64,000 nt of DNA from Microtetraspora fusca (GTDB lineage Bacteria; Actinomycetota; Actinomycetes; Streptosporangiales; Streptosporangiaceae): contig NZ_BBYK01000054.1 of assembly GCF_001570365.1 (NCBI RefSeq), positions 1 to 64,000 of the forward strand, read 5' to 3'. Shown piece by piece: positions 2,744 through 64,000 of the stretch. A program made the position numbers and the translations under genes. Under the pieces are notes generated by a model. It saw only the letters and a list, made by a program, of their open reading frames with translations, searched no databases and was not told where the DNA came from. Numbering within the stretch: position 1 is the stretch's first letter; each line of letters begins with the position of its first letter.

Positions 2744-4336
2744 ATGACGGAATCCGCCGCACCGCCAGGCAGGTCCAAAGAGGTCATGATGGTGCTGCCG
2801 GGCCTCATGCTCGCGATCATGCTGGCGATGCTCGACAACATGATCGTCGGTACGGCCATGCCGCGCATCGTCGGCGAGCTGAACGGCCTGGAGTACTTCA
2901 CGTGGGTGACCACAGCCTATGTGCTCGGGACGACGGTCTCGACGCCGATCTGGGGCAAACTGGGTGACCTTTACGGACGTAAGAGCATCTTCCTGGCGTC
3001 GATCGTCATCTTCCTTGTGGGATCCGCGCTCTGCGGCATGGCGGGTTCGTCGCTCTTCGGCGGGACCGAGGACGGCATGATCGAGCTCATCGCCTTCCGT
3101 GCGGTCCAGGGCCTCGGCGCCGGTGGCCTCATGGTGAACGCGATGGCGATCGTCGGCGACCTCGTGCCGCCCCGCGAGCGCGGGCAGTACCAGGGCATCA
3201 TGGCCGCGATCATGTCGCTGGCCATGATCGCGGGGCCGCTGGTCGGCGGCTTCATCACCGACCACCTGAACTGGCGCTGGGCCTTCTACGTGAACCTGCC
3301 CATCGGCGGCGTCGCGCTGCTCTGGCTGATCCTCAAGCTGCACCTGCCCAAGCACCGCACCGAGCACCGCATCGACTGGCTGGGCGCGGCCGTCCTCACC
3401 GTCGGCATCACCGCCATCGTGCTGATCACGTCCTGGGGCGGGCAGCAGCACGGCTACCCGTGGGGCTCCTGGCAGATCCTCAGCCTGGCCGCCCTCGCCG
3501 TGGTCTCACTGGCGATCTTCCTGCCGATCGAGAAGCGCGCGGCGGAGCCGATCATGCCGCTGCACGTGTTCGCCAACCGCAACTTCAGCCTGATCTCGGC
3601 GCTCGGCTTCCTGCTGGGGTTCGCGATGTTCGGCGCGATCAGCTTCCTGCCGCTGTTCCAGCAGACCGTGCAGGGCGCGACCGCCACCAACTCCGGCCTG
3701 CTCCTGCTGCCGATGATGGGCGCGTCGATGATCGTGTCGCTGTTCGTCGGCCGCGCGATCACCAAGACCGGGAAGTACAAGATCTACCCGGTCGTCGGCG
3801 GCGCGATCATGGCCGTCGGCGCCTGGCTGCTCTCCCTGCAGGACGCGAAGACCAGCACGCTGACGACCGGCGTGTACATCGCGGTCCTCGGCCTCGGCAT
3901 GGGCTTCCTGATGCAGACCACCATGCTCATCGCGCAGAACAGCGTCGAGCAGAAGGACCTCGGCGTCGCGAGCAGCGCCTCCACGTTCTTCCGCTCGATC
4001 GGCGGCTCGTTCGGCATCTCACTGTTCGGGGCCATCTTCAACAACAAGCTGACCGAGCAGCTCACCGCCAAGCTCGGGCCCGAGATGGCCGACAAGGTGG
4101 CGTCCAGCGGCGGCCGGATGAACCCCGCCCAGCTCGCCCAGCTTCCTCCGCAGATGAAGGACGGCATCCTGGGCGCGCTCGCCGACTCCATCAGCGGGGT
4201 CTTCGGGTGGTCCGTCCTGTTCGCCGTGCTCGTCCCGGTGATCGCGATCTTCATCAAGGAGGTCCCCCTCCGCAGCGGCGCCTCCGCGCCCGGATCGGCG
4301 GAGGAGAAGGCCGAGGCCGTCCCGGTCTTCGAATAG
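2744..4336 (+). CDS. DHA2-family (14-TM) drug:proton antiporter, MFS
   Basis: A 530-residue major facilitator of the EmrB/QacA type. The sequence shows motif D1 (LDNMIVGTAMPRI), motif A (GKLGDLYGRKS) and motif C with the antiporter signature (GPLVGGFITDHLNWRWAFYVNLPIG spread over about residues 165-190). Hydrophobicity supports 14 segments. ATG at 2744 follows AGGGGG. It should export a toxic compound from the cytoplasm in exchange for protons. Controlled by the divergent TetR gene; a strong intrinsic terminator follows at 4360-4406. Substrate unknown. Confidence 0.92.
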   Translation: MTESAAPPGRSKEVMMVLPGLMLAIMLAMLDNMIVGTAMPRIVGELNGLEYFTWVTTAYVLGTTVSTPIWGKLGDLYGRKSIFLASIVIFLVGSALCGMAGSSLFGGTEDGMIELIAFRAVQGLGAGGLMVNAMAIVGDLVPPRERGQYQGIMAAIMSLAMIAGPLVGGFITDHLNWRWAFYVNLPIGGVALLWLILKLHLPKHRTEHRIDWLGAAVLTVGITAIVLITSWGGQQHGYPWGSWQILSLAALAVVSLAIFLPIEKRAAEPIMPLHVFANRNFSLISALGFLLGFAMFGAISFLPLFQQTVQGATATNSGLLLLPMMGASMIVSLFVGRAITKTGKYKIYPVVGGAIMAVGAWLLSLQDAKTSTLTTGVYIAVLGLGMGFLMQTTMLIAQNSVEQKDLGVASSASTFFRSIGGSFGISLFGAIFNNKLTEQLTAKLGPEMADKVASSGGRMNPAQLAQLPPQMKDGILGALADSISGVFGWSVLFAVLVPVIAIFIKEVPLRSGASAPGSAEEKAEAVPVFE

Positions 4337-9185: not shown

Positions 9186-10895
9186 GTGGCTGGAAGCTCC
9201 GAGACCGACTGGGTCTCCCGTTTCGCTGACGAGGTCATCGCCGAGGCGGAGCGTCGCGCGCCCGGAAAAGCCATCGTCTGCGCATCTGGCCTCAGTCCGT
9301 CAGGGCCCATCCACCTGGGGAACCTGCGTGAGGTCATGACGCCGCATCTCGTCGCCGACGAGATCCGCCGTCGCGGGTACGAATGCGTGCACATCATCTC
9401 CTGGGACGACTACGACCGATTCCGCAAGGTCCCGGCCGGCATCGACCCGGCGTGGGCCGAGCACATCGGCAAGCCGCTGACCTCCGTGCCCGCGCCCCAG
9501 GGCAGCCCCTACGCGAACTGGGCCGAGCACTTCAAGGCCCCGATGATCGCGGCGCTCGCCGAGATGGGCATCGAGTTCCACGGCATCAGCCAGACCGAGC
9601 AGTACACCTCGGGCGCCTACCGTGAGCAGATCCTCTTCGCGATGCGCGAGCGGGAGCGGATCGACGCGATCCTCGCTCAGTACCGGACCAAGAAGCCGGC
9701 CGCCGGTCAGGGCGGGCAGCGGCAGGTCGACGAGGCGGAAGCCGCCGCCATCGAGGGATCCGGCGCGGCGACCGAGGACGACGGCAGCGCCGCCGCCGGC
9801 TATTTCCCGTACAAGCCCTACTGCTCGGCCTGCGAGCGCGACCTGACCACGGTCACCTCCTACGACGACGAGACGACCGAGCTCGCCTACACCTGCGTCT
9901 GTGGCTTCTCCGAGGTCGTGCGGCTGTCCGAGCACAACCGGGGCAAGCTGGTGTGGAAGGTCGACTGGCCGATGCGCTGGAAGTACGAGGGGGTCGTCTT
10001 CGAGCCGTCGGGGGTCGACCACTCCTCGCCGGGCTCCTCGTTCGTCGTCGGCGGGCAGATCGTCAGGGACGTGTTCGGCGGTGATCAGCCGATCGGTCCC
10101 ATGTACGCCTTCGTGGGCATCAGCGGCATGGCCAAGATGAGCAGCTCCAAGGGCGGCGTGCCCACGCCCGCCGACGCCCTGGAGATCATGGAGGCGCCGC
10201 TGCTGCGCTGGCTGTACGCCCGGCGCAAGCCCAACCAGTCCTTCAAGATCGCCTTTGACCAGGAGATCCAGCGCCTCTACGACGAGTGGGACGCGCTGGC
10301 GCGCAAGGTCGCGGACGGCACGGCGCTGCCCGCCGACCTCGCGGCGCACGCCCGGGCGATCGGCACCGCCGCCGGCCCGCTGCCGACGACGCCGCGGCCG
10401 GTGTCGTACCGGACGCTCGCCTCAGTGGTGGACGTCTCGGCGGGCGATTCCGAGCAGACGCTGCGCATCCTGCGGGACCTCGACCCGGCCGACCCGATCG
10501 CGTCTCTGGACGAGACCCGGCCCCGCCTCGACCGCGCCGCCCACTGGGTCACCACCCAGGTGCCGCTCGAGCAGCGCACCCGCGTGCGCGACGAGCCCGA
10601 CGCGGAGCTGCTGGAGTCGCTCGGCGACGCCGAGCGGGAGTCGCTGCGGCTGCTGCTGGACGGGCTCGACGAGCACTGGTCGCTGGACGCGCTGACCACC
10701 CTCGTCTACAGCGTGCCCAAGCTCCAGGCGGGCCTGCCGGCCGACGCCAAGCCGACGCCGGAGCTGAAGGTCGCGCAGCGCGGGTTCTTCGCCCTGCTGT
10801 ACCGGCTGCTGGTCGGGCGCGACACCGGCCCGCGCCTGCCGACGCTGCTTCTCGCGGTCGGCGCCGGCCGGGTGCGCAAGCTGCTCGGCGCCTGA
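9186..10895 (+). CDS. lysS: lysine--tRNA ligase, class I (archaeal type)
   Basis: A 569-residue class I lysyl-tRNA synthetase, which charges tRNA-Lys using a Rossmann-fold catalytic core. HIGH-type motif SGPIHLGN (about residues 39-46) and KMSSS (in GMAKMSSSKG) are present, with a Cys-rich insertion (CSACERDLTTV ... CVCGF) and a helical anticodon-binding C-terminus. GTG start at 9186. Most bacteria use the unrelated class II LysRS; some actinomycetes carry both, so a second gene probably exists elsewhere. A Glu/Ala-rich insert at about residues 175-200 precedes the Cys cluster. Confidence 0.95.
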   Translation: MAGSSETDWVSRFADEVIAEAERRAPGKAIVCASGLSPSGPIHLGNLREVMTPHLVADEIRRRGYECVHIISWDDYDRFRKVPAGIDPAWAEHIGKPLTSVPAPQGSPYANWAEHFKAPMIAALAEMGIEFHGISQTEQYTSGAYREQILFAMRERERIDAILAQYRTKKPAAGQGGQRQVDEAEAAAIEGSGAATEDDGSAAAGYFPYKPYCSACERDLTTVTSYDDETTELAYTCVCGFSEVVRLSEHNRGKLVWKVDWPMRWKYEGVVFEPSGVDHSSPGSSFVVGGQIVRDVFGGDQPIGPMYAFVGISGMAKMSSSKGGVPTPADALEIMEAPLLRWLYARRKPNQSFKIAFDQEIQRLYDEWDALARKVADGTALPADLAAHARAIGTAAGPLPTTPRPVSYRTLASVVDVSAGDSEQTLRILRDLDPADPIASLDETRPRLDRAAHWVTTQVPLEQRTRVRDEPDAELLESLGDAERESLRLLLDGLDEHWSLDALTTLVYSVPKLQAGLPADAKPTPELKVAQRGFFALLYRLLVGRDTGPRLPTLLLAVGAGRVRKLLGA

Positions 10896-13075: not shown

Positions 13076-13603
13076 TCAGCCGGTCAGTTCCTCGGCCAGC
13101 AGGTCCATGAGGAGGCCGTCGTGCCAGGTGCCGTCCGGGCCGCGCTCGTAGCGCCGCATGACGCCGACCGGGCGGAAGCCCACCTTCCCGTAACACCGGA
13201 TGGCGGCCGTGTTGTCCGCGGCCGGGTCGATCGTCAGCCGATGGTGGCCCCGGTCGACGGTCAGATGCCGGGCCAGCGTGCGTATGGCGTCGGCGCCGAT
13301 GCCCCGGCCGTGCACCGCCGGATCGAGGAAGACGTCGATGCTCGCGTGGCGGTAGTCGGGCTCCTCCTCCGCCGCCCACTGGATCTGGCCGACCACGCGG
13401 CTGTCGTACACGATCGCGAGGACGGCGGTGTCCGGGTCGCTCAGGTCGCGGGCCACCTCCGCCGCCAGGTCCTCCCCGCCCCGCCACCACCGGTACACCT
13501 CGGGAGTGGCCCGGATGGCGGCGAGCGCCGGGATGTCGGTCTCCGTGGCGGGCCGCAAGGTCACCGCCGTGCCGTACAGAGTCGGATGTGGATCAAGGGA
13601 CAT
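13076..13603 (-). CDS. GNAT family N-acetyltransferase
   Basis: A 175-residue acetyl-CoA-dependent N-acetyltransferase. Acetyl-CoA motif A is present as VHGRGIGADAIRTLARHL (about residues 97-114), followed by a motif B-like NTAAIRCYGKVGFRPVGVMRRYER. The arrangement and length resemble AAC(6')-like and ribosomal-protein acetyltransferases. Start ATG 13603. Monocistronic; the substrate (aminoglycoside, protein or metabolite) is not evident. Confidence 0.85.
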   Translation of the reverse strand: MSLDPHPTLYGTAVTLRPATETDIPALAAIRATPEVYRWWRGGEDLAAEVARDLSDPDTAVLAIVYDSRVVGQIQWAAEEEPDYRHASIDVFLDPAVHGRGIGADAIRTLARHLTVDRGHHRLTIDPAADNTAAIRCYGKVGFRPVGVMRRYERGPDGTWHDGLLMDLLAEELTG

Positions 13604-13715
13604 GTCCGGACGCTACCTCAGCGTCCCCGCCGGTGCGGCGAAATGTCCGCGGCCCCTGGGGGAGTGCGCGGCTCCGCCCAGAGCCCCTCGCACACCACGC
13701 CGGCCGCTCGGTGAG

Positions 13716-54071: not shown

Positions 54072-54738
54072 ATGCCGATCCTGGCCGAGCCGGTCGACCT
54101 GGTCGTCGAGGGCTACTCGTCGGACACCGAGATCGAGAACCTCGACGCGTACCGCGCGGAGCTGCGTGAGACGCTCCACCTCCGGCCGGAGGCGCCGATC
54201 GTCCTCGTCTCGCACCACCTCAGCCACCCGTACAGCGCCTTTCCTCCCTCGCCGGTCGAGCGTGCGGCCGGGCTCGTGGTCGACGCGCAGGGCAGCCGCG
54301 TACGCGACCTCACCGAGGAGGTGGACCTGCCGCCGGGCGCCGGCGGGCACATGCTGGAGGTCGCCTCCTTCTATCGCTGCGAGCGCGGGCGGATCGAATG
54401 CCTGGCCAAGCAGCCTCTGGGACGGCGGCTGGGCCCGCCCGGCGGGCCTGGGCTGCTTCTACGCGCGTGGGCTGCGCGCTGTACGGGCTGATCGCCTGCC
54501 TCGGGCGGCAGAGCGCGTTCCGCTGGACGGACGACTTCCTCGGGCCGGAGCCCGACCGGGCCGAGATCGAGGCGGCCGTGCGCGACCTCCCCGACGACCT
54601 CGTCGCCGAGCGGCCCGCCGACCTCGCCGCCGCGATCGTCGAACTCCTGGAGGCCGGACGGGTGGTGGGCCTGCACCAGGGACGCAGCGAGTTGGGCCCG
54701 CGCGCGCTCGGTCGCCGCCCGCAACGTCAGCAGGCCTC
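54072..54738 (+). pseudogene. frameshifted carbamoyltransferase (NodU/CmcH-like) relic
   Basis: Three frames together rebuild part of a carbamoyltransferase. Frame one: VVEGYSSDTEIENLDAY, IVLVSHHLSHPYSAFPPSPVERAAGLVVDAQGSRVRDLTEE. At about 54410 the match moves to WDGGWARPAGLGCFYARG in a second frame, and at about 54468 to ALYGLIACLG...FRWTDDFLGPEPD and VVGLHQGRSELGPRALG in a third. The N-terminal quarter and the C-terminus are missing. At least two frameshifts make it a pseudogene. Confidence 0.7.
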
Positions 54739-54983
54739 CGGCACGCGGGCTCGGCTGCTCGACATAGCCCCTGATCATCTCGTCCTCCCCGCCTCCGGGA
54801 ACGCGCCGTGACGCCGACGATCCACCCGCCCCCCGAACAGAGGGAACACGGCGTCCCGGACGCGGGTGACTCCCACCCGGGTCATTTCACGCCCACGGTT
54901 GGGCCGCCTCGGCGAGGCGCGCCGCGCCCGGAGGCGGAGCCCTGAATAGCCTCCCCGGGACTACTTCCTGTGAGGGGATGACG

Positions 54984-55019
54984 GTGTCTTCCAGGGACAA
55001 GGTGTCTTCCAGGGACAAG
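54984..55019 (+). repeat. 18-nt tandem repeat at the ccmC start
   Basis: GTGTCTTCCAGGGACAAG occurs twice in tandem (54984-55001, 55002-55019), encoding VSSRDKVSSRDK. Each copy begins with GTG, so the duplication offers two possible start codons for ccmC. Confidence 0.9.
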
Positions 55020-55736
55020 ACGAACGCGGGCGGCGCGCACCGCCGCCGCCTGCTCGGGGCGGCCGCACTGATCGCCGCGGGCCTTGCCGCGCCGCTCGGC
55101 CTGCTCGCCGCTCCCACGGACGCGGTGCAGGGCGAGGCCCAGCGCCTGATGTACGTCCACGTGCCCGCGGTGCTCACCGCGTACGCCGCCTTCGCCGTCA
55201 TGGTGGCGGCCAACGTGCTGTACCTGGCCCGCCGCGCCGAGCGGTGGGACCGGCTGGGCCGCGCGGCGGCCGAGCTGGGCGCCGGTCTCACCGCCCTCAC
55301 CATCGCGCTGGGTGTCCTGTGGGCCCGGCCCGTGTGGGGCGTCTGGTGGACCTGGGACCCGCGCCTGGTCAGCACCGCGGCGATGCTGCTGCTGGCGCTC
55401 GGCTGCCTCGCCGTACGGGCCTGGCCCGGCGAGGCGGGCGCGGGGGCTCGCCGGGCGGCGCTGGCGGGACCGCTGGTGGCCGCCGCGATGCCGGTGGTCC
55501 ACTTCTCCGTGTTGTGGTGGCGGACGCTGCACCAGCCGCCGTCGCTGCTCAAGCCGTCCGGGGCGGTGCCGATCGACCCGCCGATGCTCGTCGCGCTCCT
55601 CGCCGGGATCGCGGCCTTCCTGCTGGCCGGAGCCTGGGTGGTCGCGCGGCGGTACCGCTCTCTCGCCGCCGCGCTCGAGACCCCGACCCGGCCCCGCGAG
55701 GACGTGGAGCCCGCGCCCTTGAGGGCCGCGGCGTGA
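54984..55736 (+). CDS. ccmC: heme exporter/handling protein CcmC
   Basis: A 250-residue polytopic membrane protein of System I cytochrome c maturation. The tryptophan-rich heme-handling motif is clear (WGVWWTWDPRLVSTAAMLLLAL), with flanking His residues in YVHVPAVLTAY and VVHFSVLWWRTLHQPPS. CcmC loads heme onto CcmE. GTG 54984 has AGGGG six bases before it; ATG 54978 is too close to that site, and GTG 55002 is an alternative. It starts an operon of overlapping genes; ccmA and ccmB are not found upstream. Confidence 0.9.
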   Translation: MSSRDKVSSRDKTNAGGAHRRRLLGAAALIAAGLAAPLGLLAAPTDAVQGEAQRLMYVHVPAVLTAYAAFAVMVAANVLYLARRAERWDRLGRAAAELGAGLTALTIALGVLWARPVWGVWWTWDPRLVSTAAMLLLALGCLAVRAWPGEAGAGARRAALAGPLVAAAMPVVHFSVLWWRTLHQPPSLLKPSGAVPIDPPMLVALLAGIAAFLLAGAWVVARRYRSLAAALETPTRPREDVEPAPLRAAA

Positions 55737-55849
55737 CCGGCGTGACGGATGCGTCCGTCACGGGCGCGGGATGGGTGTGGGCGGGCTACCTGCTCACCGC
55801 CGTGACCTGGGGCTGCTACGCCGCCTGGTCCGGAAGGAGGCGGTCGTGA
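55733..55849 (+). CDS. ccmD: CcmD-like small membrane protein
   Basis: A 38-residue peptide starting with GTG that overlaps the ccmC stop by 4 nt and the ccmE start by 4 nt. Its single hydrophobic segment (GWVWAGYLLTAVTWGCYAAW) followed by an Arg-rich tail has the size and layout of CcmD, which stabilises the CcmC-CcmE complex. Sequence identity of CcmD is always low, so position supports the call more than sequence. Confidence 0.75.
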   Translation: MTGVTDASVTGAGWVWAGYLLTAVTWGCYAAWSGRRRS

Positions 55850-56244
55850 AGTTCGTGTCGTCGCGGCGCCTGCCGCTGCTGCTCGTCTTCTCCGCCGGGA
55901 TCGCGCTCACGTGCCTGGCGGTCTCCGGGCTCGGGGACGGGCTCGTCTACTACCGGACGCCCAGCGAGATCGCGCAGAGCCACGCCGCCCTGGCCCGGCG
56001 CACCCGGGTCGGGGGAGTCGTCGTGCCGGGCTCGGTCCACCGCGAGGGGAGCGTGCTGCTCTTCCTGCTCTCCGACGGCACGGCCGTCCTGCGGGTCGCC
56101 TATCAGGGCGAGCGGCCACCGGTCTTCCGTGAGGGCCAGGGAGCGGTGGTCGAGGGCATCACCGGCCCGGACGGCCTCTTCCGCTCTGACCGCCTCATGG
56201 TGAAGCACTCCAACGAGTACCGAGCCGAGGCCGCCACCCCGTGA
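55846..56244 (+). CDS. ccmE: periplasmic-type heme chaperone CcmE
   Basis: A 132-residue CcmE. An N-terminal membrane anchor (LLLVFSAGIALTCLAVSGL) is followed by an OB-fold domain and the heme-binding site H121-x-x-x-Y125 (VKHSNEY), the histidine form typical of bacterial CcmE (the cysteine variant is absent). GTG 55846 lies right after GGAGG. It receives heme from CcmC and passes it to CcmF/H on the outer face of the membrane. Confidence 0.92.
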   Translation: MKFVSSRRLPLLLVFSAGIALTCLAVSGLGDGLVYYRTPSEIAQSHAALARRTRVGGVVVPGSVHREGSVLLFLLSDGTAVLRVAYQGERPPVFREGQGAVVEGITGPDGLFRSDRLMVKHSNEYRAEAATP

Positions 56245-58205
56245 ACTGCCTGCTCGGAACCCTCGCGCTCGCCCTGGGCGCGGCGGCGTCCGCGGTGGCC
56301 GCCCTCGCCTGGCCCCGCCCGGCGAGGCGCCGTACGGCCGTCGCGGCCACGGCGGCGGCGCTCGGCTGCGCGGCGGCCGCGTTCGCCGTGCTGGAGAACG
56401 CGCTGCTCACCCGCGACTTCGGGGTCGCCTTCGTGGCCGGGCACGGGGGCCGGGACGTCTCGCCGTACTACACGGTCACCAGCCTGTGGTCCGGGCTCGA
56501 AGGCTCGATGGTGCTGTGGCTGCTCGCGCTCGCCGGCTTCGCCTGGGCGGCCGGCCGCCAGCGGGGGGAGGACCCGCGGCGGCCGGTCGCGATGACGGTG
56601 ATCACGCTGGTGTGCGGGTGCTTCTTCGCGCTCACCCTGCTGGCCGCGAACCCGTTCGAGCCGGCCGCCGCCGTACCCACTGACGGGCCCGGCCCGAACC
56701 CGCTGCTGCGCGGCCACCCGCTCATGGGGATCCACCCGCCGCTGCTCTACCTCGGGTACACCGGCCTCGTCGTGCCGTTCGCGTACGGCGTCGCCGGCCT
56801 GCTCACCGGGGACGGCGGGCGCGACGGAGTGCGGACCATACGGCGGTGGACCCTGCTCGCCTGGATCCCCCTGACCGCGGGCATCGTGCTCGGCGCCTGG
56901 TGGTCGTACGGCGTGCTCGGCTGGGGTGGTTACTGGGAGTGGGACCCGGTGGAGAACGCCTCGATCGTCCCGTGGTTCGTGACCACGGCGCTGCTGCACT
57001 CGCTGATGGTGCAGGAACGGCGCGGCGCGCTGCGGCGCTGGAACGTCTCGCTCGCGGTCGCCGCGTTCCTCCTCGTGCTGACCGGCACCTTCCTCACCCG
57101 CAGCGGGGCGGTGAGCAGCGTCCACTCCTTCACCGCCTCGGCCGTCGGCCCGGCGCTGCTCGGCCTGCTCACCGCGGCGCTGGTCGCCACCGGCGGGCTG
57201 CTCGCCCGGCACGCCGACCGGTCCGGCGCCGGGCCGGGGCTCAGGCCGGGTTTCTCCCGCGACCTGCTGTTCCTCGTCAACAACGTGCTGCTGACGACCC
57301 TCGCCTTCACGGTGCTCCTCGGCACGCTGGCCCCGCTCGTCGTGGAGGCCGTGCGGGGGACGCCGGTCACCGTCGGCCCGCCGTACTTCGACCGGATGGC
57401 GATCCCGCCCGCGCTGGCGCTGCTCGCGGCCATGGCCGCGGCCCCGCTGGTGCCCTGGGCGCGGGCGGACCGGCGCATCCTCGCCCGGCGGCTGCGCGTC
57501 CCCGTCGCGCTCGGCGCGCTGACCGTCACCCTGCTCGGCCTGACCGGCCGCCACCGGCCCCTGCCGCTGCTCGCCTTCGGCCTCGGGGCGTTCGCCCTGG
57601 CGGCGGTCGCGACCCGCGCGGCGGAGACGATCAAAAGCCGGGGCGGGACGACGCTCGCGCGCGGCGCGGTCCGCCGCCGTCTCGGCGGCCTGCTCGTCCA
57701 CGCCGGGATCGCGCTGGCCGCCGTGGCCGTGACCGGCTCGTCCGCGTACGCGCAGGAGGGCCGGGCGCGGCTCGCGACGGGGCAGGTCCTCGACGTCGGC
57801 GGCTACCGGGTGCGCATGGAGGGCACCGAGGAGGTGCGGACCGGGGACAGCCTGACCGGTACGGCCCGGGTGAGCCTGTCGCATGACGGGTGGCCGCTGG
57901 GCGTGTTCCGGCCGTCGCTGGTGCTCTATCCGGCGAGCGGCGCCCCTCCCGTGGCGAACCCCGCCATCCGCACCGGCCCGTTCGACGACGTGTACCTCAC
58001 GGTGACGGAGATCGACCCCGCCACGCGGTCGGCGGAGATCGGCGTCGCGGTGAACCCGCTGATGGTCCTCCTCTGGACGGCGGGCGGCCTGATCGTGGCG
58101 GGCGGCGTGGCCGCCGTACCGCAGGGCCGGAGGCGGCGGGCGGCCATTCCGCGTCCGCCGGACGGGGCGGCGACGACGGCGCGGGAGGAGGCCGGAACGC
58201 GATGA
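56241..58205 (+). CDS. ccmF: cytochrome c heme lyase CcmF
   Basis: A 654-residue integral membrane protein. The WWD domain reads WGGYWEWDPVENASIVPW (about residues 228-245), preceded by PNPLLRGHPLMGIHPPLLY with a conserved His (H165). Multiple membrane segments and a C-terminal periplasmic region agree with CcmF. It attaches heme to the CxxCH cysteines of apocytochromes. GTG 56241 overlaps the ccmE stop by 4 nt. Confidence 0.93.
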   Translation: MNCLLGTLALALGAAASAVAALAWPRPARRRTAVAATAAALGCAAAAFAVLENALLTRDFGVAFVAGHGGRDVSPYYTVTSLWSGLEGSMVLWLLALAGFAWAAGRQRGEDPRRPVAMTVITLVCGCFFALTLLAANPFEPAAAVPTDGPGPNPLLRGHPLMGIHPPLLYLGYTGLVVPFAYGVAGLLTGDGGRDGVRTIRRWTLLAWIPLTAGIVLGAWWSYGVLGWGGYWEWDPVENASIVPWFVTTALLHSLMVQERRGALRRWNVSLAVAAFLLVLTGTFLTRSGAVSSVHSFTASAVGPALLGLLTAALVATGGLLARHADRSGAGPGLRPGFSRDLLFLVNNVLLTTLAFTVLLGTLAPLVVEAVRGTPVTVGPPYFDRMAIPPALALLAAMAAAPLVPWARADRRILARRLRVPVALGALTVTLLGLTGRHRPLPLLAFGLGAFALAAVATRAAETIKSRGGTTLARGAVRRRLGGLLVHAGIALAAVAVTGSSAYAQEGRARLATGQVLDVGGYRVRMEGTEEVRTGDSLTGTARVSLSHDGWPLGVFRPSLVLYPASGAPPVANPAIRTGPFDDVYLTVTEIDPATRSAEIGVAVNPLMVLLWTAGGLIVAGGVAAVPQGRRRRAAIPRPPDGAATTAREEAGTR

Positions 58206-58888
58206 GCCGCACGCCGAGGGGCACGCGTACGGAGGATCGGGCCGGGGACGCGCGGGCGAAGGCCCGCACATCGCGAGCGGGGGCTCCGGCAGAGAACGCG
58301 CCGGCCGGATCCCGCGTTCGGGAGGGGGACGCGCCGAGGGGATCCCGCGTGGTGGGGGCCCTGCCCCGCGTGCGGCGGCTGCGCCCGGCCCTCGCCGTGG
58401 TACTGGCGACGATCCTCGCGGCCGTCCTCGCGTACGGCCTGGCCAGGAAGGGGAGCACGGACCCGGCCGTGATCCGGCGGACGCCGGACCTCGCGGGAAG
58501 CACCCTGGACGGGCGGGACTTCCGGCTCGCCGGGCTGCGCGGGCACGTCGTGCTGGTCAACGTCTGGGCCTCCTGGTGCGGCCCCTGCCGGGAGGAACTG
58601 CCGCTGCTGCTGGACACCGTGCGGCGATACGCCCCCCGGGGGCTGCGCGCGGTGGGCGTGGACACGCGCGACGGGCGGCCGGCGGCGCGGGCCTTCCTCG
58701 AGGAGTCCGGCGACGGCGGGTTCCCGCACCTGTTCGATCCGGACGGGCGGCTGGCGGTCGAGCTCGGCGCGTTCGGGGTGCCGGAGACCTTCCTGCTCGA
58801 CCGGAACGGCGTGATCGTCCGCCGCCGCGTCGGCCCCCTCACCGAGGAGTGGATCGAGGCGAACGTCCTGCCGGAGCTGGCCGCGTGA
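58202..58888 (+). CDS. ccmG: membrane thioredoxin CcmG (DsbE)
   Basis: A 228-residue protein with an N-terminal cytoplasmic basic tail of about 60 residues, one membrane anchor (LAVVLATILAAVLAYGL) and a thioredoxin fold with W-C126-G-P-C129 (VWASWCGPC) and the cis-Pro region GVPETFLLD. It reduces apocytochrome cysteines before heme attachment. The start overlaps the ccmF stop (ATGA). Confidence 0.9.
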   Translation: MSRTPRGTRTEDRAGDARAKARTSRAGAPAENAPAGSRVREGDAPRGSRVVGALPRVRRLRPALAVVLATILAAVLAYGLARKGSTDPAVIRRTPDLAGSTLDGRDFRLAGLRGHVVLVNVWASWCGPCREELPLLLDTVRRYAPRGLRAVGVDTRDGRPAARAFLEESGDGGFPHLFDPDGRLAVELGAFGVPETFLLDRNGVIVRRRVGPLTEEWIEANVLPELAA

Positions 58889-59988
58889 TCGCCGTCCGCC
58901 GCCGTGACCGCCCCGCCTCCGGACGCCGGCCAGCGTGCCCCACCCTGGGCCGTCCCGCACGCGGCCGTCGTCATCCTGGCCGCTCCGTTCTCGGCCGCCT
59001 CGCTCTCAGCCGTCCCAGGTTCGGGCGTCCCTTGACCGGCCGGAGCCTGGCCGCCCGTGTGGCGACCGGCGGCCTGGCCGTCCTGCTCGCGCTCGCGGCG
59101 CTGGCGGTGTGGCGGTCGGCGCAGCGGGAGCCGGCGGACCGCGCCACCGAGGTGGCCGAGATCGCCTCGGGGCTGCGCTGTCCCGACTGTGAGGGGCTGT
59201 CCGCCGCCGAGTCGTCCTCGACCATGGCCCGGGCCGTGCGCGAGGAGATCGGACGGCAGCTCGCCCAGGGGCACGATCCCGACCAGATCCGGCAGTTCTT
59301 CGCGAGCCGGTACGGCCCGGCGTTCCTGCTTTCGCCCCCGGTGTCGGGCGCGTCGGCGATCCTGTGGGCGCTGCCCGTGGTCGTGTTCGCCGTCGGCTGC
59401 GCGGCCGTCCTCGCGCTTCTCCTGCGCGGACGACGCCGCACCTGTTCCTTGCGCCGGGACCGGGAACGCGGTTCGCCCGCTCCTCGCCCGCGTCGCGCCG
59501 GGATCGCGCTGCCGGCCGCCGCCGTGGCCGCGGGCGTCCTCGCGCTGCTGCTGGCCCGGCCGGACGCGCGGGCGGCGCCACCGCCCGCACCGCGCGCGGA
59601 CGGCCCCGCCGACCTCGTCTCCCTCGGCCGGACCCTCGACTCCATGGGTGACGCCGAGGGCGCCGTACGGGCCTACCGCGAGGCCGCCGCGCTGCTCCCG
59701 GAGGACCCGCGGATCCCGCGCCTCCTCGGGCTCGCCCTGCTGAAGGCGGGCCGTCCCGCCGAGGCCGTCGCGCTGCTGCGGCCCCTGCTCGCGCGCTCCC
59801 CGGACGACGACGAGCTGCTGCTCGTCCTCGGGGCCGCCGAACTCACCGCCGATCCGCCCGCCGGGCGGCGCACGCTCCGGCGCTTCCTCCGGCTCGCCCC
59901 GCCGGGCCACCCCGCCGTCGCGCGGGTGCGCCGGCTGCTCGCCGTACGGCACGACGGAACAGGAGCCGCTGGAGCCGCCACACCGTGA
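58885..59988 (+). CDS. ccmH: CcmH-CcmI fusion
   Basis: A 367-residue protein. The CcmH-type heme lyase motif L-R-C99-P-D-C102 (SGLRCPDCEGLS) lies after an N-terminal membrane segment; after a second membrane region the C-terminal part has TPR-like helices (SLGRTLDSMGDAEGAVRAYREAAALLPEDPRI and LLKAGRPAEAVALLRPLL), the apocytochrome-binding job of CcmI. The first 55 residues are Arg/Pro-rich and odd; the start (GTG 58885, overlapping ccmG stop) could be later, for example TTG 59032. Confidence 0.85.
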   Translation: MIAVRRRDRPASGRRPACPTLGRPARGRRHPGRSVLGRLALSRPRFGRPLTGRSLAARVATGGLAVLLALAALAVWRSAQREPADRATEVAEIASGLRCPDCEGLSAAESSSTMARAVREEIGRQLAQGHDPDQIRQFFASRYGPAFLLSPPVSGASAILWALPVVVFAVGCAAVLALLLRGRRRTCSLRRDRERGSPAPRPRRAGIALPAAAVAAGVLALLLARPDARAAPPPAPRADGPADLVSLGRTLDSMGDAEGAVRAYREAAALLPEDPRIPRLLGLALLKAGRPAEAVALLRPLLARSPDDDELLLVLGAAELTADPPAGRRTLRRFLRLAPPGHPAVARVRRLLAVRHDGTGAAGAATP

Positions 59989-60250
59989 CGGCCACGGCGA
60001 GGAGCAGCGCGGCGCGGGCCGCGCGGCGGGCGACGCCGCGTCCCGTGCGCCGGCTCCGGTGCGGCGCGTCCTGGATCGGGACCCCGGCATAGGACGTGGC
60101 GGCGCTGTGGCACGCCTCCTCCCGCTCCGCGTACGCCATGTTGGCGAGCAGTCGGACCTCGGGGAAGGAGCCGTGCGCCGGGCGCACGTACTCCCAGCGC
60201 CAGTAGCCGTCCGGCTGGCGCCAGACCTCGATGCGGTCGTCCCACCTCAC
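59843..60250 (-). CDS. small protein at the end of the qcr operon
   Basis: A 135-residue protein starting with GTG 60250, which overlaps the qcrB stop by 4 nt. The N-terminal part (VRWDDRIEVWRQPDGYWRWEYVRPAHGSFPEVRLLANMAYAEREEACHSAA) is plausible and resembles short DUF1508-like strand patterns; a hydrophobic stretch follows. The C-terminal 49 codons lie antisense inside ccmH and look like a frame shadow, so the true end may be shorter or the 3' ends really overlap by 146 bp. Confidence 0.55.
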   Translation of the reverse strand: MRWDDRIEVWRQPDGYWRWEYVRPAHGSFPEVRLLANMAYAEREEACHSAATSYAGVPIQDAPHRSRRTGRGVARRAARAALLLAVAVTVWRLQRLLFRRAVRRAAGAPARRRGGPAGRAGGSAGACAARRADRR

Positions 60251-61692
60251 GCGCCGGCCCCCTCCTCCCCGGACGCGGCGGGCCGTTCCGCCCCCGCCGC
60301 ACGCCGCTCGCCGCCCTCCACATCGGGCGGCCGACGGCGGATCACGGCGGCGATCCGCCGCCACCGCAGGTCGAGCAGCGTCGCCTCCGGGTCCTCGCGC
60401 AGCGCCCGCGCCAGCACGTACGCCACGGCCCCGATCGCCACGGGGACGACCAGTACGACGATCCGCATCGTACGGACGATCCCGAAGACGGGGATCTGGA
60501 AATAGCGCGCCACCACGTCGTCCGAGGAGGCGAGCAGCAGCAGGCCGTAGAACGACGCGCCCCACGCCCAGGCGGCCACCCTGGCCGGGCTGTCCCGCGG
60601 CCGGTCGAGCACCTGGTGGCGGCCCCGGCCACGGGTGAGCCGCCGGTCCAGCCACGGCCACAGGTACAGCACGAGGAAGGTCAGCGCGGGCATGACCACG
60701 CCGGGCACGAACGGCGCCGGGACCAGATAGCCGAAGATCCGGAACTCGTACGGGGGATACAGCCGAAGCGCCCCCTCGACCCAGGCGAGGAACCAGTCCG
60801 GCTGCGCCGGGGAGGTGGCCCCGCTCGGCCGGAACGGGCCCCACACCCACACCGGGTTGATCTGGACCAGGCCGCCGAGCCCGAACGTGACGGCGAACAC
60901 GGCGCACATCAGGGCCAGCGACCGGAAGCCGTACGTCGGCCACATCTTGGAGCCCACCACGTTGTCCTGGGTGCGGCCGGGGCCGGGGAAGTGCGTGTGC
61001 TTCTGCCGGATCAGGATCGCGAGGTGCGCGCCGATCAGGGCGGCGATCGCGCCGGGCAGCAGGAGCACGTGCAGGATGTAGAGCCGGGGGATGATCGACG
61101 TCCCGGGGAACCCGCCGCCGAAGAGCAGGAAGGCCGCCCACGGCCCGACCACCGGCACCGACAGCAGCGTCGCGGCGGCGATCCTGAGCCCGGTGCCGGA
61201 CAGGAGGTCGTCGGGCACGGAATAGCCGGCGAAGCCGGTGGCGATCCCGAGGAGGAACATCGTCAGCCCGATCACCCAGTTGATCTCGCGCGGCTTGCGG
61301 AACGCGCCGGTGAGGAAGATCCGGGACAGGTGCGCGACGATCGCGGAGAGGAAGACGAGCGCCGACCAGTGGTGGGTCTGCCGCATGAGGAGGCCCGCCC
61401 GCACGTCCCAGCTCAGCGTCACGGCCGACGCGTACGCCGCGGACGCCCGCACCCCGCGCATCGGGCCGTACGCGCCGGTGTAGACGGTCTCGGCCGGGCT
61501 CGGTTCGAAGAACAACGTGAGGAAGACGCCCGTCGCGACCAGCGACACGAAGGAGTAGAGGGCGATCTCGCCCAGCATGAACGTCCAGTGGTCGGGGAAG
61601 ACCTTGGCCAGCGTCTTCCTGGTCACGGACGCGATCCGCACTCTGCCGTCCAGCCACAACAGCACGCGGCGGACGGCCCATCTGGTGATCAT
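60247..61692 (-). CDS. qcrB: bc complex cytochrome b subunit QcrB
   Basis: A 481-residue integral membrane subunit. Four heme ligands are visible as two pairs: H107 or H108 (RQTHHWSAL) and H121 (IVAHLSRIF) with H208 (LYILHVLLL) and H223 (IGAHLAIL). The quinol-site PEWY motif reads PDWF (QPDWFLAWVEG). ATG 61692 overlaps the qcrA stop. It oxidises menaquinol and passes electrons to QcrA and QcrC. About 60 residues shorter than common actinobacterial QcrB, mainly at the C-terminus. Confidence 0.92.
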   Translation of the reverse strand: MITRWAVRRVLLWLDGRVRIASVTRKTLAKVFPDHWTFMLGEIALYSFVSLVATGVFLTLFFEPSPAETVYTGAYGPMRGVRASAAYASAVTLSWDVRAGLLMRQTHHWSALVFLSAIVAHLSRIFLTGAFRKPREINWVIGLTMFLLGIATGFAGYSVPDDLLSGTGLRIAAATLLSVPVVGPWAAFLLFGGGFPGTSIIPRLYILHVLLLPGAIAALIGAHLAILIRQKHTHFPGPGRTQDNVVGSKMWPTYGFRSLALMCAVFAVTFGLGGLVQINPVWVWGPFRPSGATSPAQPDWFLAWVEGALRLYPPYEFRIFGYLVPAPFVPGVVMPALTFLVLYLWPWLDRRLTRGRGRHQVLDRPRDSPARVAAWAWGASFYGLLLLASSDDVVARYFQIPVFGIVRTMRIVVLVVPVAIGAVAYVLARALREDPEATLLDLRWRRIAAVIRRRPPDVEGGERRAAGAERPAASGEEGAGA

Positions 61693-62546
61693 GCCGACCT
61701 CCAGTAGCCCGGTCCGACCGGAGTGGGGAAGTCGCCCCGCGCGACCAGCACCCCCTCGGCGTTCACGCCGATCGGAAGCTGGGGGAGCGACCGCGCGGCG
61801 GGCCCGGCGACCGGCGAGGCGCCCTTCAGGACGTCGAACACCGACTGGTGGCACGGGCACACGAGCTGCTCGGCGGTCTGCACGTACAGCGCGACCGGGC
61901 AGCCCGCGTGCGTGCAGATCTTGGAGTAGGCGACGACGCCGTCCACCGTCCACGCCTTCCGCCCGCGCGGCAGCGCGAGCCGCGCCGGGTTGACGCGTAG
62001 CAGCACGGTCATGGCGTGGTCGTCCTTGAGGCGTCCCTCGGGGAACGCCGTCACGATCCCGCCGAGTGCGATGTCGGAGGGCCGCAGCGGCGCGCCGTCC
62101 GCGTTCACGAGCCGGACGCCGTCACGCCACGCGGTACGGCGGAGCGCCCGCCAGGGCGTGGGCCCGTGGAACAGCAGCGACCGGATCGGGAACACGAGCG
62201 CCACGCCGAGCGTGCCGAGGGCGAGCATGAGCATCCGGCGCGGCAGGGCCGCCCGGACGACCGGCTCCTGGTCCGCGTCCAACTCGGCGGTGAAGGCGCG
62301 CCGGGCCTCGGGAGGCGAGATCATCGCCTCCCGTTCCTCCACGTACGGCCCCTGCGGGAGCAGGCGTGCGGCCCACACGGCGAACCCGGCGGCCAGGCCG
62401 GCGAAGGCGAGGCACAGGGCGAGCCCGAGGAGCTGCGTCTGGTTCCCGAGGACGTAGACCGCGGCGAAGGAGACCGCGGCGAGCACGGTGAGCGCGAACG
62501 CCGCCGCGACGAGCCGCTCCGCGGTCCGGCGTCCCCGCCCGTTCAT
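61689..62546 (-). CDS. qcrA: Rieske iron-sulfur subunit QcrA
   Basis: A 285-residue subunit with three N-terminal membrane segments (about residues 12-34, 38-60, 102-124), the actinobacterial QcrA layout. The 2Fe-2S site has C211-T-H213-A-G-C216 and C230-P-C232-H233. ATG 62546 overlaps the qcrC stop by 4 nt. Electron carrier from the quinol site to cytochrome cc. Confidence 0.93.
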   Translation of the reverse strand: MNGRGRRTAERLVAAAFALTVLAAVSFAAVYVLGNQTQLLGLALCLAFAGLAAGFAVWAARLLPQGPYVEEREAMISPPEARRAFTAELDADQEPVVRAALPRRMLMLALGTLGVALVFPIRSLLFHGPTPWRALRRTAWRDGVRLVNADGAPLRPSDIALGGIVTAFPEGRLKDDHAMTVLLRVNPARLALPRGRKAWTVDGVVAYSKICTHAGCPVALYVQTAEQLVCPCHQSVFDVLKGASPVAGPAARSLPQLPIGVNAEGVLVARGDFPTPVGPGYWRSA

Positions 62547-63307
62547 CGCGCCCGCTTTCCGAGCGCCCGGATGACGAGCAGCAGCACGCCCAGGCCGAGC
62601 ACCCACGCCACGACGCCCTCGGTGACCGGGCCGACCCCGCCGAGCGGCCAGCCGCCCGCGCCGGACGTGCGCGGCAGCGTGCGGATGTACGCGATGACCG
62701 AGTTGAGCGCGCCGTCGCTGAGCGTCCCCCGGCCGAACTTCGGCATCGCCCCCGGCCCGAGTCGTACGGCCTCGGCGATCTGGACGGGCGCCGTCCCCGT
62801 CAGGGACGGGGCGTACCGCCCGGCGGGCAGCGCGCCGCCCTCGCCGGTGGAGGAGTGGCAGGCGGCGCAGTCGCGCAGGTAGATCGTCAGACCCTGCTGT
62901 ACGTTCCCCTTGCCCACGGCCGGGATGGCGGGGCCGGGCCCGAACGAGGCGACGTAGGAGACCAGGGCGTCGATGTCCCGCCGGCCGAAGGCGGGAGGGC
63001 CGTGTCTCGGCAGCGCCCGCGGGTTCGGCAGCGGCATCCGGCCGGTGGAGAGCCAGAAGTCCGCGCTCGCCGCTCCCACGCCTTTCAGGCTCGGGCCGTA
63101 CTGGGAGCCCTCGCCCCGCTGGCCGTGGCAGCTCGCGCAACTGATCCCGTACAGCTGCCGCCCCCGGACCATCGGCGACGGCGACGGCGCGGGAGCTGAA
63201 ACCGCGGCCGGACGCGGACCCGCCGCGGGCGCGGCGAAGGAGAGCAGGGGCGCGGCGAGCAGTGGCACGGTGAGCAGGGGCGCGATGATCTGTCGCTGGG
63301 TCGGCAC
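62543..63307 (-). CDS. qcrC: diheme cytochrome c subunit QcrC
   Basis: A 254-residue exported subunit. Two heme c sites: C57-A-S-C60-H61 (ISCASCHG) and C147-A-A-C150-H151 (RDCAACHS). The N-terminal hydrophobic stretch is a signal anchor and the C-terminal segment VVAWVLGLGVLLLVIRALGKRAR is a membrane anchor, as in actinobacterial cytochrome cc. GTG 63307 lies 2 bp past the stop of the preceding cytochrome gene. Its two hemes would need the Ccm machinery or a distant System II. Confidence 0.92.
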   Translation of the reverse strand: MPTQRQIIAPLLTVPLLAAPLLSFAAPAAGPRPAAVSAPAPSPSPMVRGRQLYGISCASCHGQRGEGSQYGPSLKGVGAASADFWLSTGRMPLPNPRALPRHGPPAFGRRDIDALVSYVASFGPGPAIPAVGKGNVQQGLTIYLRDCAACHSSTGEGGALPAGRYAPSLTGTAPVQIAEAVRLGPGAMPKFGRGTLSDGALNSVIAYIRTLPRTSGAGGWPLGGVGPVTEGVVAWVLGLGVLLLVIRALGKRAR

Positions 63308-63309
63308 GG

Positions 63310-63708
63310 TCAGTCCAGGGTGAAGAGGTAGGCGGCGATGTCGCGCGCGTCCTGCTCGGTCACGCCGAGGTTCGGCATGGCCGTCCCCGGCTCGATCGCG
63401 GGCGGGTTGCGGATCCAGCGCTGCAGGTTCGGCCCGCTGTTCGGCAGCTCCCCGGCGATGTAGCCGCGCCGTCCGAAGGACGTGAGCGGCGGGCCCACGA
63501 GCGCGTCCCCCTCGACGCCGGGCACGGTGTGGCAGGAGGTGCAGCCGTACCGGCTGAGGAGGAGCCGCCCCTTCGCCGGGCTGCCGTCGGGCACCTCCGG
63601 CGGCGGCTCGCCGCCCGCGCCGCAGCCTCCGGCGCACGCCGCCAGCACCGCGAGCGCGACCGCGGCGATCACGCGGCGGCCGGGGACGGCGCCGCCCCGC
63701 CGCCTCAT
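63310..63708 (-). CDS. monoheme cytochrome c lipoprotein
   Basis: A 132-residue exported cytochrome. A hydrophobic signal segment with a lipobox-like site (LAACAGGC) precedes one heme c site C56-T-S-C59-H60 (YGCTSCHTVPG) and a Met-ligand region (TAMPNLGV). It overlaps the ctaG-like stop (ATGA) and sits in front of qcrC. It may carry electrons between the bc complex and a terminal oxidase. Confidence 0.88.
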   Translation of the reverse strand: MRRRGGAVPGRRVIAAVALAVLAACAGGCGAGGEPPPEVPDGSPAKGRLLLSRYGCTSCHTVPGVEGDALVGPPLTSFGRRGYIAGELPNSGPNLQRWIRNPPAIEPGTAMPNLGVTEQDARDIAAYLFTLD

Positions 63709-64000
63709 CGGCCGGCCTCCTCCGACGAGGACGCGGGCAGCGTCATGGCGTCGTTCCCCCTTTCCGCGGTCCCCATCCAGGCGAGGAAGAAGACCACGAT
63801 CGCGGCGAAGTAGACGACGTCCGCCGGCACCCACATCACCAGGCCGGCGAGCTGCTGGTCGGCCAGCGGGTTCGCGCCGGACGCGGCCGCGGCCGCCGCC
63901 TGGGACGGGTACAGCGGAGCGGGCGCCAGCGTGAGGACGGCGCCGAGCGCCGCCGCCGGCAGCGCGGTGACGAACAGGTAGAGCGTCGCGACCGGCGGGC
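63705..64000 (-). CDS. ctaG: CtaG-type cytochrome c oxidase assembly protein (partial)
   Basis: Only the C-terminal 97 residues are inside the window; the gene continues beyond 64000. It shows membrane segment LYLFVTALPAAALGAVLTLA, then PLADQQLAGLVMWVPADVVY and FAAIVVFFLAWMGTAER, which matches the C-terminus of caa3-type CtaG (DQQLAGLxMWVPxGLVY). CtaG helps metallate cytochrome oxidase, so oxidase genes may lie beyond the edge. Part of the minus-strand qcr operon. Confidence 0.75.
   Translation of the reverse strand, partial: PPVATLYLFVTALPAAALGAVLTLAPAPLYPSQAAAAAASGANPLADQQLAGLVMWVPADVVYFAAIVVFFLAWMGTAERGNDAMTLPASSSEEAGR

Follow-up and report, generated by a model that had tools for sequence, protein, structure and literature searches.

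In the System I (Ccm) pathway of cytochrome c maturation, as described for Escherichia coli, CcmCDE forms holo-CcmE without the ATP-binding cassette (ABC) transporter CcmAB but keeps hold of it, and ATP hydrolysis by CcmA frees the chaperone (PMC9616876, PMC12077264; these and the other papers cited here were available to us as excerpts). Views on the part played by CcmAB differ: the same two papers present CcmCD as the heme transporter or limit CcmAB to the release of holo-CcmE, another group regards CcmB as the heme translocase (PMC11868835), and according to a third view CcmABCD uses ATP to flop heme where CcmB and CcmC meet (PMC10457321). Here, we analyzed a stretch of 64,000 nucleotides from Microtetraspora fusca (Streptosporangiaceae; hereafter the window), which comprises positions 1–64,000 of contig C53 (NZ_BBYK01000054.1) of a 9.02 Mb draft genome (G000; 108 contigs, 99.23% complete) and carries a ccm operon with neither ccmA nor ccmB at the locus. 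We assign a probability of roughly 57% to the reading that this operon encodes a working System I without an ABC transporter, in which holo-CcmE would leave CcmC without CcmAB.

The operon consists of six plus-strand open reading frames (ORFs), which overlap stop to start and contain no internal stops:

54978–55736, plus strand: ccmC, a WWD protein for loading CcmE with heme; P-His1, WWTWD and P-His2 kept; Pfam PF01578 (Cytochrom_C_asm), 97 bits
55733–55849, plus strand: ccmD, 38 amino acids, single-transmembrane-like, with a GY pair; placed between ccmC and ccmE
55846–56244, plus strand: ccmE, heme chaperone with KHSNEY (H121, Y125); Pfam PF03100, 84 bits
56241–58205, plus strand: ccmF, heme lyase with four conserved His and WGGYWEWDPVEN; PF01578, 121 bits, and PF16327 (CcmF_C), 176 bits
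58202–58888, plus strand: ccmG, thiol-disulfide oxidoreductase with WCGPC; Pfam AhpC-TSA/Redoxin
58885–59988, plus strand: ccmH, a CcmH domain with LRCPDC followed by a TPR (CcmI-like) part; PF03918, 87 bits, and TPR models

The gene order C-D-E-F-G-H is shared with the ccmABCDEFGH operon of E. coli (MG1655 2291358–2297644), as are the WWD and P-His sites of CcmC, the GY pair of CcmD, HxxxY of CcmE, the four His of CcmF and the Cys motifs of CcmG and CcmH. Unlike E. coli, M. fusca lacks ccmA and ccmB at the locus and CcmB in the genome, and has System II alongside. An earlier note on this DNA had proposed six overlapping genes from ccmC to ccmH-I with intact key residues (the WWD motifs, H121 of CcmE, WCGPC of CcmG and LRCPDC of CcmH), and ORF coordinates, Pfam matches, frame checks and alignments agree with it. 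CcmC, CcmE, CcmF, CcmG and CcmH all exceeded the Pfam cut-off; in NCBIfam the same five received similar names, each below the curated cut-offs (for CcmG the best match was the dsbE family), so that they are diverged members. Among solved structures in PDB, CcmC matched E. coli CcmC (7f02_C, phmmer E 4.6e-25, among other chains) and CcmF matched 6zmq (E 9.4e-105). CcmD found no model in Pfam or NCBIfam searches and is named by position, length, and a hydrophobic stretch and GY pair recognized by eye. The GY pair occurs in the intact loci of the clade and in Pseudonocardia; it was matched to G16-Y17 of E. coli by eye, while MAFFT placed the two apart. Among named relatives, the soil actinomycete Microtetraspora niveoalba comes closest by CcmF (88%, tblastn).

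At least nine Streptosporangiaceae genomes carry ccm genes, seven of them intact and two broken; these carriers are the genomes met by pattern search and in genome samples, and others may exist. Besides M. fusca they are M. niveoalba (L006, taken to be G061), Sinosporangium siamense (L007), Streptosporangium sandarakinum (L008), Sphaerisporangium fuscum (L009), Nonomuraea wenchangensis (L010), N. pusilla (L011), S. pseudovulgare (L021) and the genome G118.

CcmB is missing from the whole genome of M. fusca, not from the locus alone. The CcmB model PF03379 gave no match at E ≤ 1e-3, and at E ≤ 10 the best score was 19.5 bits against a cut-off of 24.9, a cut-off passed in none of the nine carrier genomes. 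As a control, the model was run on 37 more distant genomes that hold a CcmF relative, and in 35 of them CcmB exceeded the cut-off (12 other handles in that set were Streptosporangiaceae, four of them duplicates); in the two without it (G213, G223) the contigs bearing ccmF are 4.0 and 6.3 kb long. The CcmB of Pseudonocardia reached 59.6 bits and that of G950, a tree neighbour of the group lacking the transporter, 71.9 bits. With the Pseudonocardia CcmB as query, all four CcmB-bearing relatives were matched (E 2e-14 to 9e-55), and no carrier gave a match below E 0.08. The absence of the pair from the locus and the reduced System I, both put forward in the earlier note, thus stand; the genome-wide check that it had called for is settled for CcmB, whereas for CcmA the score does not decide. 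Among the 150 of 335 candidates in the M. fusca genome that were scored, none passed the cut-off of 131.6 for the CcmA model TIGR01189, which gave 157 matches with a best score of 127.4. This score is not diagnostic, because the CcmA of Pseudonocardia itself reaches only 118.2. The best CcmA-like ATPase lies on contig C51 (127.4 bits in the genome search, 124.1 on the called protein) beside a 505-amino-acid permease-like protein, and scores equally well (125.1) against a zinc transporter ATPase.

The draft state of the assembly and the undiagnostic CcmA score leave some room for CcmA and CcmB being present and missed, through an assembly gap or extreme divergence. We regard this as very improbable, since CcmB is absent from nine of nine carriers, one of which is assembled in four contigs (G169, the genome with the broken copy L008), and since the CcmB of near relatives is readily detected. 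Moreover, tblastn found no ccmA or ccmB remnants near the ccm genes in the loci of the clade; the ABC ATPases that were matched, beside the window's cluster (L077), in L078 and in L137, belong to other genes and other pairs.

Each of the six ccm genes is a single open frame in all seven intact loci, with the heme- and thiol-handling residues retained. In alignments with E. coli, CcmF keeps His at positions 173, 261, 303 and 491 together with the WWD segment, and WCxxC of CcmG and RCPDC of CcmH occur in 7/7 intact loci; these four His positions and the two Cys motifs we take to be functional sites. CcmC of the clade retains P-His1 (H60), the WWD segment and P-His2 (H184), and CcmE retains H-x3-Y, whose H is H121; the choice of important residues in CcmC, CcmD and CcmE follows PMC9616876 and PMC12077264. 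Compared with M. niveoalba, the ratio of nonsynonymous to synonymous changes (dN/dS) is 0.275 for ccmC, 0.325 for ccmE, 0.268 for ccmF, 0.298 for ccmG and 0.381 for ccmH, as a simple Nei-Gojobori count over the aligned parts of these five genes (ccmD left out).

The ccm genes face a convergent operon that encodes a bc complex and a caa3 oxidase; the window contains these parts of it:

60247–61692, minus strand: qcrB-type cytochrome b; NF050120 (bc1_QcrB_actin), 560.6 bits, cut-off 500; syntenic in the clade
61689–62546, minus strand: Rieske protein (qcrA); PF00355, QcrA_N
62543–63310, minus strand: diheme cytochrome c with two CxxCH; Cytochrome_CBB3 / Cytochrom_C; likely substrate; start uncertain
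63310–63708, minus strand: monoheme cytochrome c with one CxxCH; PF00034; likely substrate
63705–64000, minus strand: CtaG-like caa3 assembly factor; PF09678; cut by the window end

Past the window the operon continues on C53 to 68697 with coxC, coxA and a coxB that includes a cytochrome c domain (COX3, COX1, COX2 + Cytochrom_C). The bc/caa3 cluster lies beside ccm in each of the other six intact carriers, the stretches viewed cutting qcrB in L011, coxB in L006 and L009, and coxA in L021 (whose coxB was seen separately). The order of the ccm and oxidase blocks varies among carriers; in N. wenchangensis ccmCDE and ccmFGH lie apart and the monoheme cytochrome c gene is absent from the cluster. 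Beyond coxB, at C53:69020–71227 (L077:5017–7227), an ABC-2 permease, a DrrA-like ATPase and a MarR-like regulator (named by reading) adjoin the cluster in M. fusca and M. niveoalba; an ortholog of the permease lies elsewhere in G118 and in G204, and the other five carriers do not have it.

The ccm genes and the caa3 oxidase appear and decay together. CcmE was found in six of 200 genomes of the family, and a caa3 CoxB (65–100% identity) in the same six, a count that ignores relatedness; matches in the other 49 CoxB-positive genomes reach 37% or less, G171 adds a coxB/coxA relic, and the congener G096 has neither CcmE nor caa3 CoxB. In S. sandarakinum (L008), ccmC has an in-frame stop (about 8980), and the matches of ccmH and qcrB stop short where both genes converge (13157–13214). 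In G118 (L078), ccmC has a stop, ccmE lies in two frames, and ccmF is cut at residue 462 beside a truncated coxB, ccm and cox thus being broken together. G171 (L137, about 9378–9976) retains the coxB/coxA relic only, with no ccm match in the surrounding 19 kb. L008, L078 and the scrap in L137 can be viewed as three decay stages of one ccm-bc-caa3 unit. Shared presence in the same six genomes and joint breakage indicate that ccm and oxidase travel together.

System II is also encoded in this genome, as the check for ccsA and resB proposed in the earlier note revealed. The genome's one ResB is encoded on a different contig (C48:47165–48562) and is adjoined by a CcsA over the NCBIfam cut-off, with ResA-like and CcdA-like neighbours (by reading); at the ccm locus itself neither ResB nor CcsA was found. 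Presumably, System II serves the ordinary bcc complex and housekeeping cytochromes. Its presence, together with the ccmC stop and the end loss of ccmH and qcrB in L008 and the erosion in G118, could also mean that ccm is a decaying, non-functional remnant and that System II matures the cytochromes of the cluster. This is improbable in our view: seven of nine carriers keep every gene open with its catalytic residues, dN/dS stays at 0.27–0.38, ccm presence matches that of the caa3 cluster across 200 genomes, and in the broken copies the bc/caa3 genes are damaged as well.

System I is not foreign to actinobacteria, contrary to what the earlier note had supposed from their general use of System II. 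Of 396 Actinomycetota genomes, 170 encode CcmE, which is rare only in the class (10/394 genomes, two of them Streptosporangiaceae) and in the family (6/200). CcmB was matched at E ≤ 1e-3 in 167 of the 170, and in 165 of these the match reached 1e-6 or better (at most seven candidates per genome scored), leaving M. fusca, G256 and G313 with CcmE and no CcmB; G445 and G619 are weak. The ccm contigs of G256 and G313 measure 7.9 and 6.0 kb, and we therefore do not treat these two genomes as additional cases. In the neighbourhoods of the eight other genomes of the class, ccmB adjoins ccmC in seven. The eighth, G785, belongs to another family (7.3 Mb genome) and has the same caa3/bc cluster (CoxA 73%, CoxB 63%, QcrB 65%) adjoining ccmC-ccmE-ccmF-ccmG-ccmH, with overlapping ccmC and ccmE and no ccmD between them; no ccmA or ccmB match was found within 54 kb of its ccm genes.

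In CcmF trees, Streptosporangiaceae form one clade (100/100 with 8 rows; 100/99 with 9 rows, including the truncated gene of G118 read as a stop-to-stop frame), with weakly supported relations inside it. G785 joins this clade weakly (83/53) and G950 comes next (100/99), followed by a Pseudonocardia plasmid, G305, Acidimicrobiaceae, G300 and G501, each with CcmB in the genome or plasmid. The simplest reading of this topology is that ccmAB was lost once, before G785 and Streptosporangiaceae diverged; two separate losses are possible. Judged from the trees, the system looks like a System I that lost its ABC transporter rather than a proteobacterial import. Such an import is not supported as an origin, the clade sitting among actinobacteria and E. 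coli far off in trees in which E. coli alone stood for proteobacteria and from which Deinococcus was left out. The tree comparison proposed in the earlier note was made in this form for CcmF, and of the lateral acquisition that it suggested, a proteobacterial source is not needed, whereas transfer among actinobacteria is possible because of the patchy spread and the plasmid location of the Pseudonocardia copies. The two Pseudonocardia ccm operons examined are plasmid-borne, and the plasmids are typed as mobilizable, which might have been a route of spread inside the class. On these plasmids (L122, NZ_CP052772.1; L123, NZ_CP012185.1), complete ccmABCDEF-H-G operons stand beside cytochrome oxidase and metal transport genes.

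How could holo-CcmE be released in such a system? We infer activity, substrates and release route as follows. CcmC with CcmD would take heme b to the WWD/P-His site and attach it to His121 of CcmE. Holo-CcmE would then leave CcmC without an ATPase stroke of CcmAB, either through lower affinity or by being pulled off by CcmF/CcmH. CcmF/CcmH would attach the heme to the linked bc-caa3 cytochromes, namely the diheme c, the monoheme c and the heme-c CoxB, while CcmG would keep CxxCH reduced for attachment. A set of CcmC to CcmH without CcmB implies a self-releasing CcmC-CcmE pair, a pull by CcmF/CcmH, or another ATPase.

The last option, replacement of CcmAB in trans by an ABC transporter that is encoded elsewhere and is either not homologous to it or far diverged from it, appears rather unlikely. 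Candidates could come from the ABC proteins that match the CcmA model (157 matches), and the ABC-2 pair just beyond coxB (C53 69020–70691), whose ATPase is 39% identical to the Pseudonocardia CcmA, adjoins coxB in M. niveoalba too. However, the permease of this pair is PF01061 and not CcmB, its ortholog (83–100%) occurs in only four of the nine carriers (G000, G061, G204 and the broken G118), the remaining five show relatives at 38% or less, and in L007, L010 and L011 a ccm gene follows directly after coxB. This comparison across carriers concerned the adjoining ABC-2 pair alone rather than the genome's other ABC pairs; as a substitute for CcmAB, that pair is not supported. Self-release or a pull by CcmF/CcmH is favoured, because heme loading in E. 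coli needs no CcmAB and because the neighbouring ABC pair is not common to the carriers. The earlier note's suggestion of a variant that releases CcmE differently would stay the best reading.

A possible trace of the lost partner was sought in CcmC, whose helices TM4 and TM5 (TM, transmembrane helix) dock on CcmB in E. coli (PMC9616876). In TM4 and the following loop, conserved columns, defined by a commonest residue shared by 60% or more of the relatives, show greater loss than in the other helices in six of seven clade sequences, and equally low values occur in only 0–2 of 43 non-redundant comparison sequences. An earlier run with 40 comparison sequences gave 0–3/40 for the six members and 9/40 for L007. 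By single-column count, TM4 plus loop (5/13 kept) is not clearly worse than TM2-3 (9/17 kept). The region borders were hand-set from E. coli numbering and the broken L008 and L078 left out; the comparison set is taken as CcmAB-bearing by assumption, and the clade members are not independent. An eroded CcmB-facing surface at TM4 is thus suggestive only.

Several points weigh against a working System I without a transporter. The TM4 loss is absent in L007 (13/43) and in G785 (20/43), which likewise shows no transporter genes around ccm, and TM5, the second helix said to touch CcmB, shows no loss. In E. coli, ATP-site mutants of CcmA, all but H81A, make holo-CcmE that is not released, and no cytochrome c (PMC9616876). 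The absence of CcmA is less certain than that of CcmB. Finally, the unit is dispensable, as two of nine carriers are broken. Balancing these points against the evidence above, we see slightly better than even odds for the wider statement that a System I free of the ABC transporter evolved in Actinomycetes, where CcmC(D) alone would move heme and CcmE would be released without ATP hydrolysis by CcmAB. It would span two families or more, and one of these would also have lost ccmD from the locus.

Some further features were observed around these loci. Just upstream of ccmC, and outside the Ccm system, lies one more feature of the window:

54072–54811, plus strand: carbamoyltransferase relic

Its first ORF (54072–54491) has no Pfam match of its own and is 85% identical to part of a 575-amino-acid M. 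niveoalba gene in a like place (L006:5344–7071) with the carbamoyltransferase domains PF02543/PF16861, which backs the relic named in the earlier note. In addition, a small cupredoxin-like protein (type-1 copper ligands H, C, H, M, by reading) follows ccmH in five loci. Cupredoxin-like features were located at:

L010:355–1017, minus strand
L011:13508–13936
L021:13933–14340
L009, about 13424–13711
L155, about 3100–3522, minus strand
L163:10988–11413

Two of three such proteins had no Pfam match and one matched SoxE weakly. By tblastn, no such gene was found in the window, L077, L006, L007, L008, L078, L122, L154 or L156. In N. wenchangensis, CcmE carries a related cupredoxin-like domain as a C-terminal fusion. 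In G950, genes for an oxidase-like protein, multiheme cytochromes and a molybdopterin oxidoreductase lie between two ccm blocks, ccmABCDE (L153) and ccmFGH with the cupredoxin gene (L163).

In the open-licence PMC literature, judged by titles and abstract openings among the matches listed, we found no report of a System I without CcmAB or of Ccm in these actinomycetes; as far as these show, the Streptosporangiaceae System I without CcmB is a previously unreported variant. Since the role of CcmAB is disputed, a natural system that keeps CcmC to CcmH under constraint without CcmB allows a direct test. If our reading is true, System I would not inherently depend on CcmB to translocate heme or on ATP to drive release, and a smaller kit for producing c-type cytochromes might be at hand. 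Compared with known systems, the Pseudonocardia plasmid operon (NZ_CP052772.1, NZ_CP012185.1) is of the same class, shares the order ccmC-D-E-F and a nearby ctaD oxidase gene, has CcmC about 55% and CcmF 43–53% identical, and falls in the sister group of the CcmF tree; unlike M. fusca, it keeps ccmA and ccmB upstream of ccmC. G950 (L153/L163), whose CcmF groups with Streptosporangiaceae and G785 (100/99), has a CcmC of 58% identity and a cupredoxin gene after ccmH; unlike M. fusca, it has ccmABCDE (CcmB 71.9 bits), linked to a molybdopterin oxidoreductase cluster. The streamlined archaeal CcmABCEF of Methanosarcina acetivorans is, according to the excerpts of PMC9084895, likewise a natural reduced System I, which keeps CcmAB and is without CcmD and CcmH. 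M. fusca presents the reverse: without CcmB, and without ccmA at the locus, it keeps CcmH and, within the family, CcmD.

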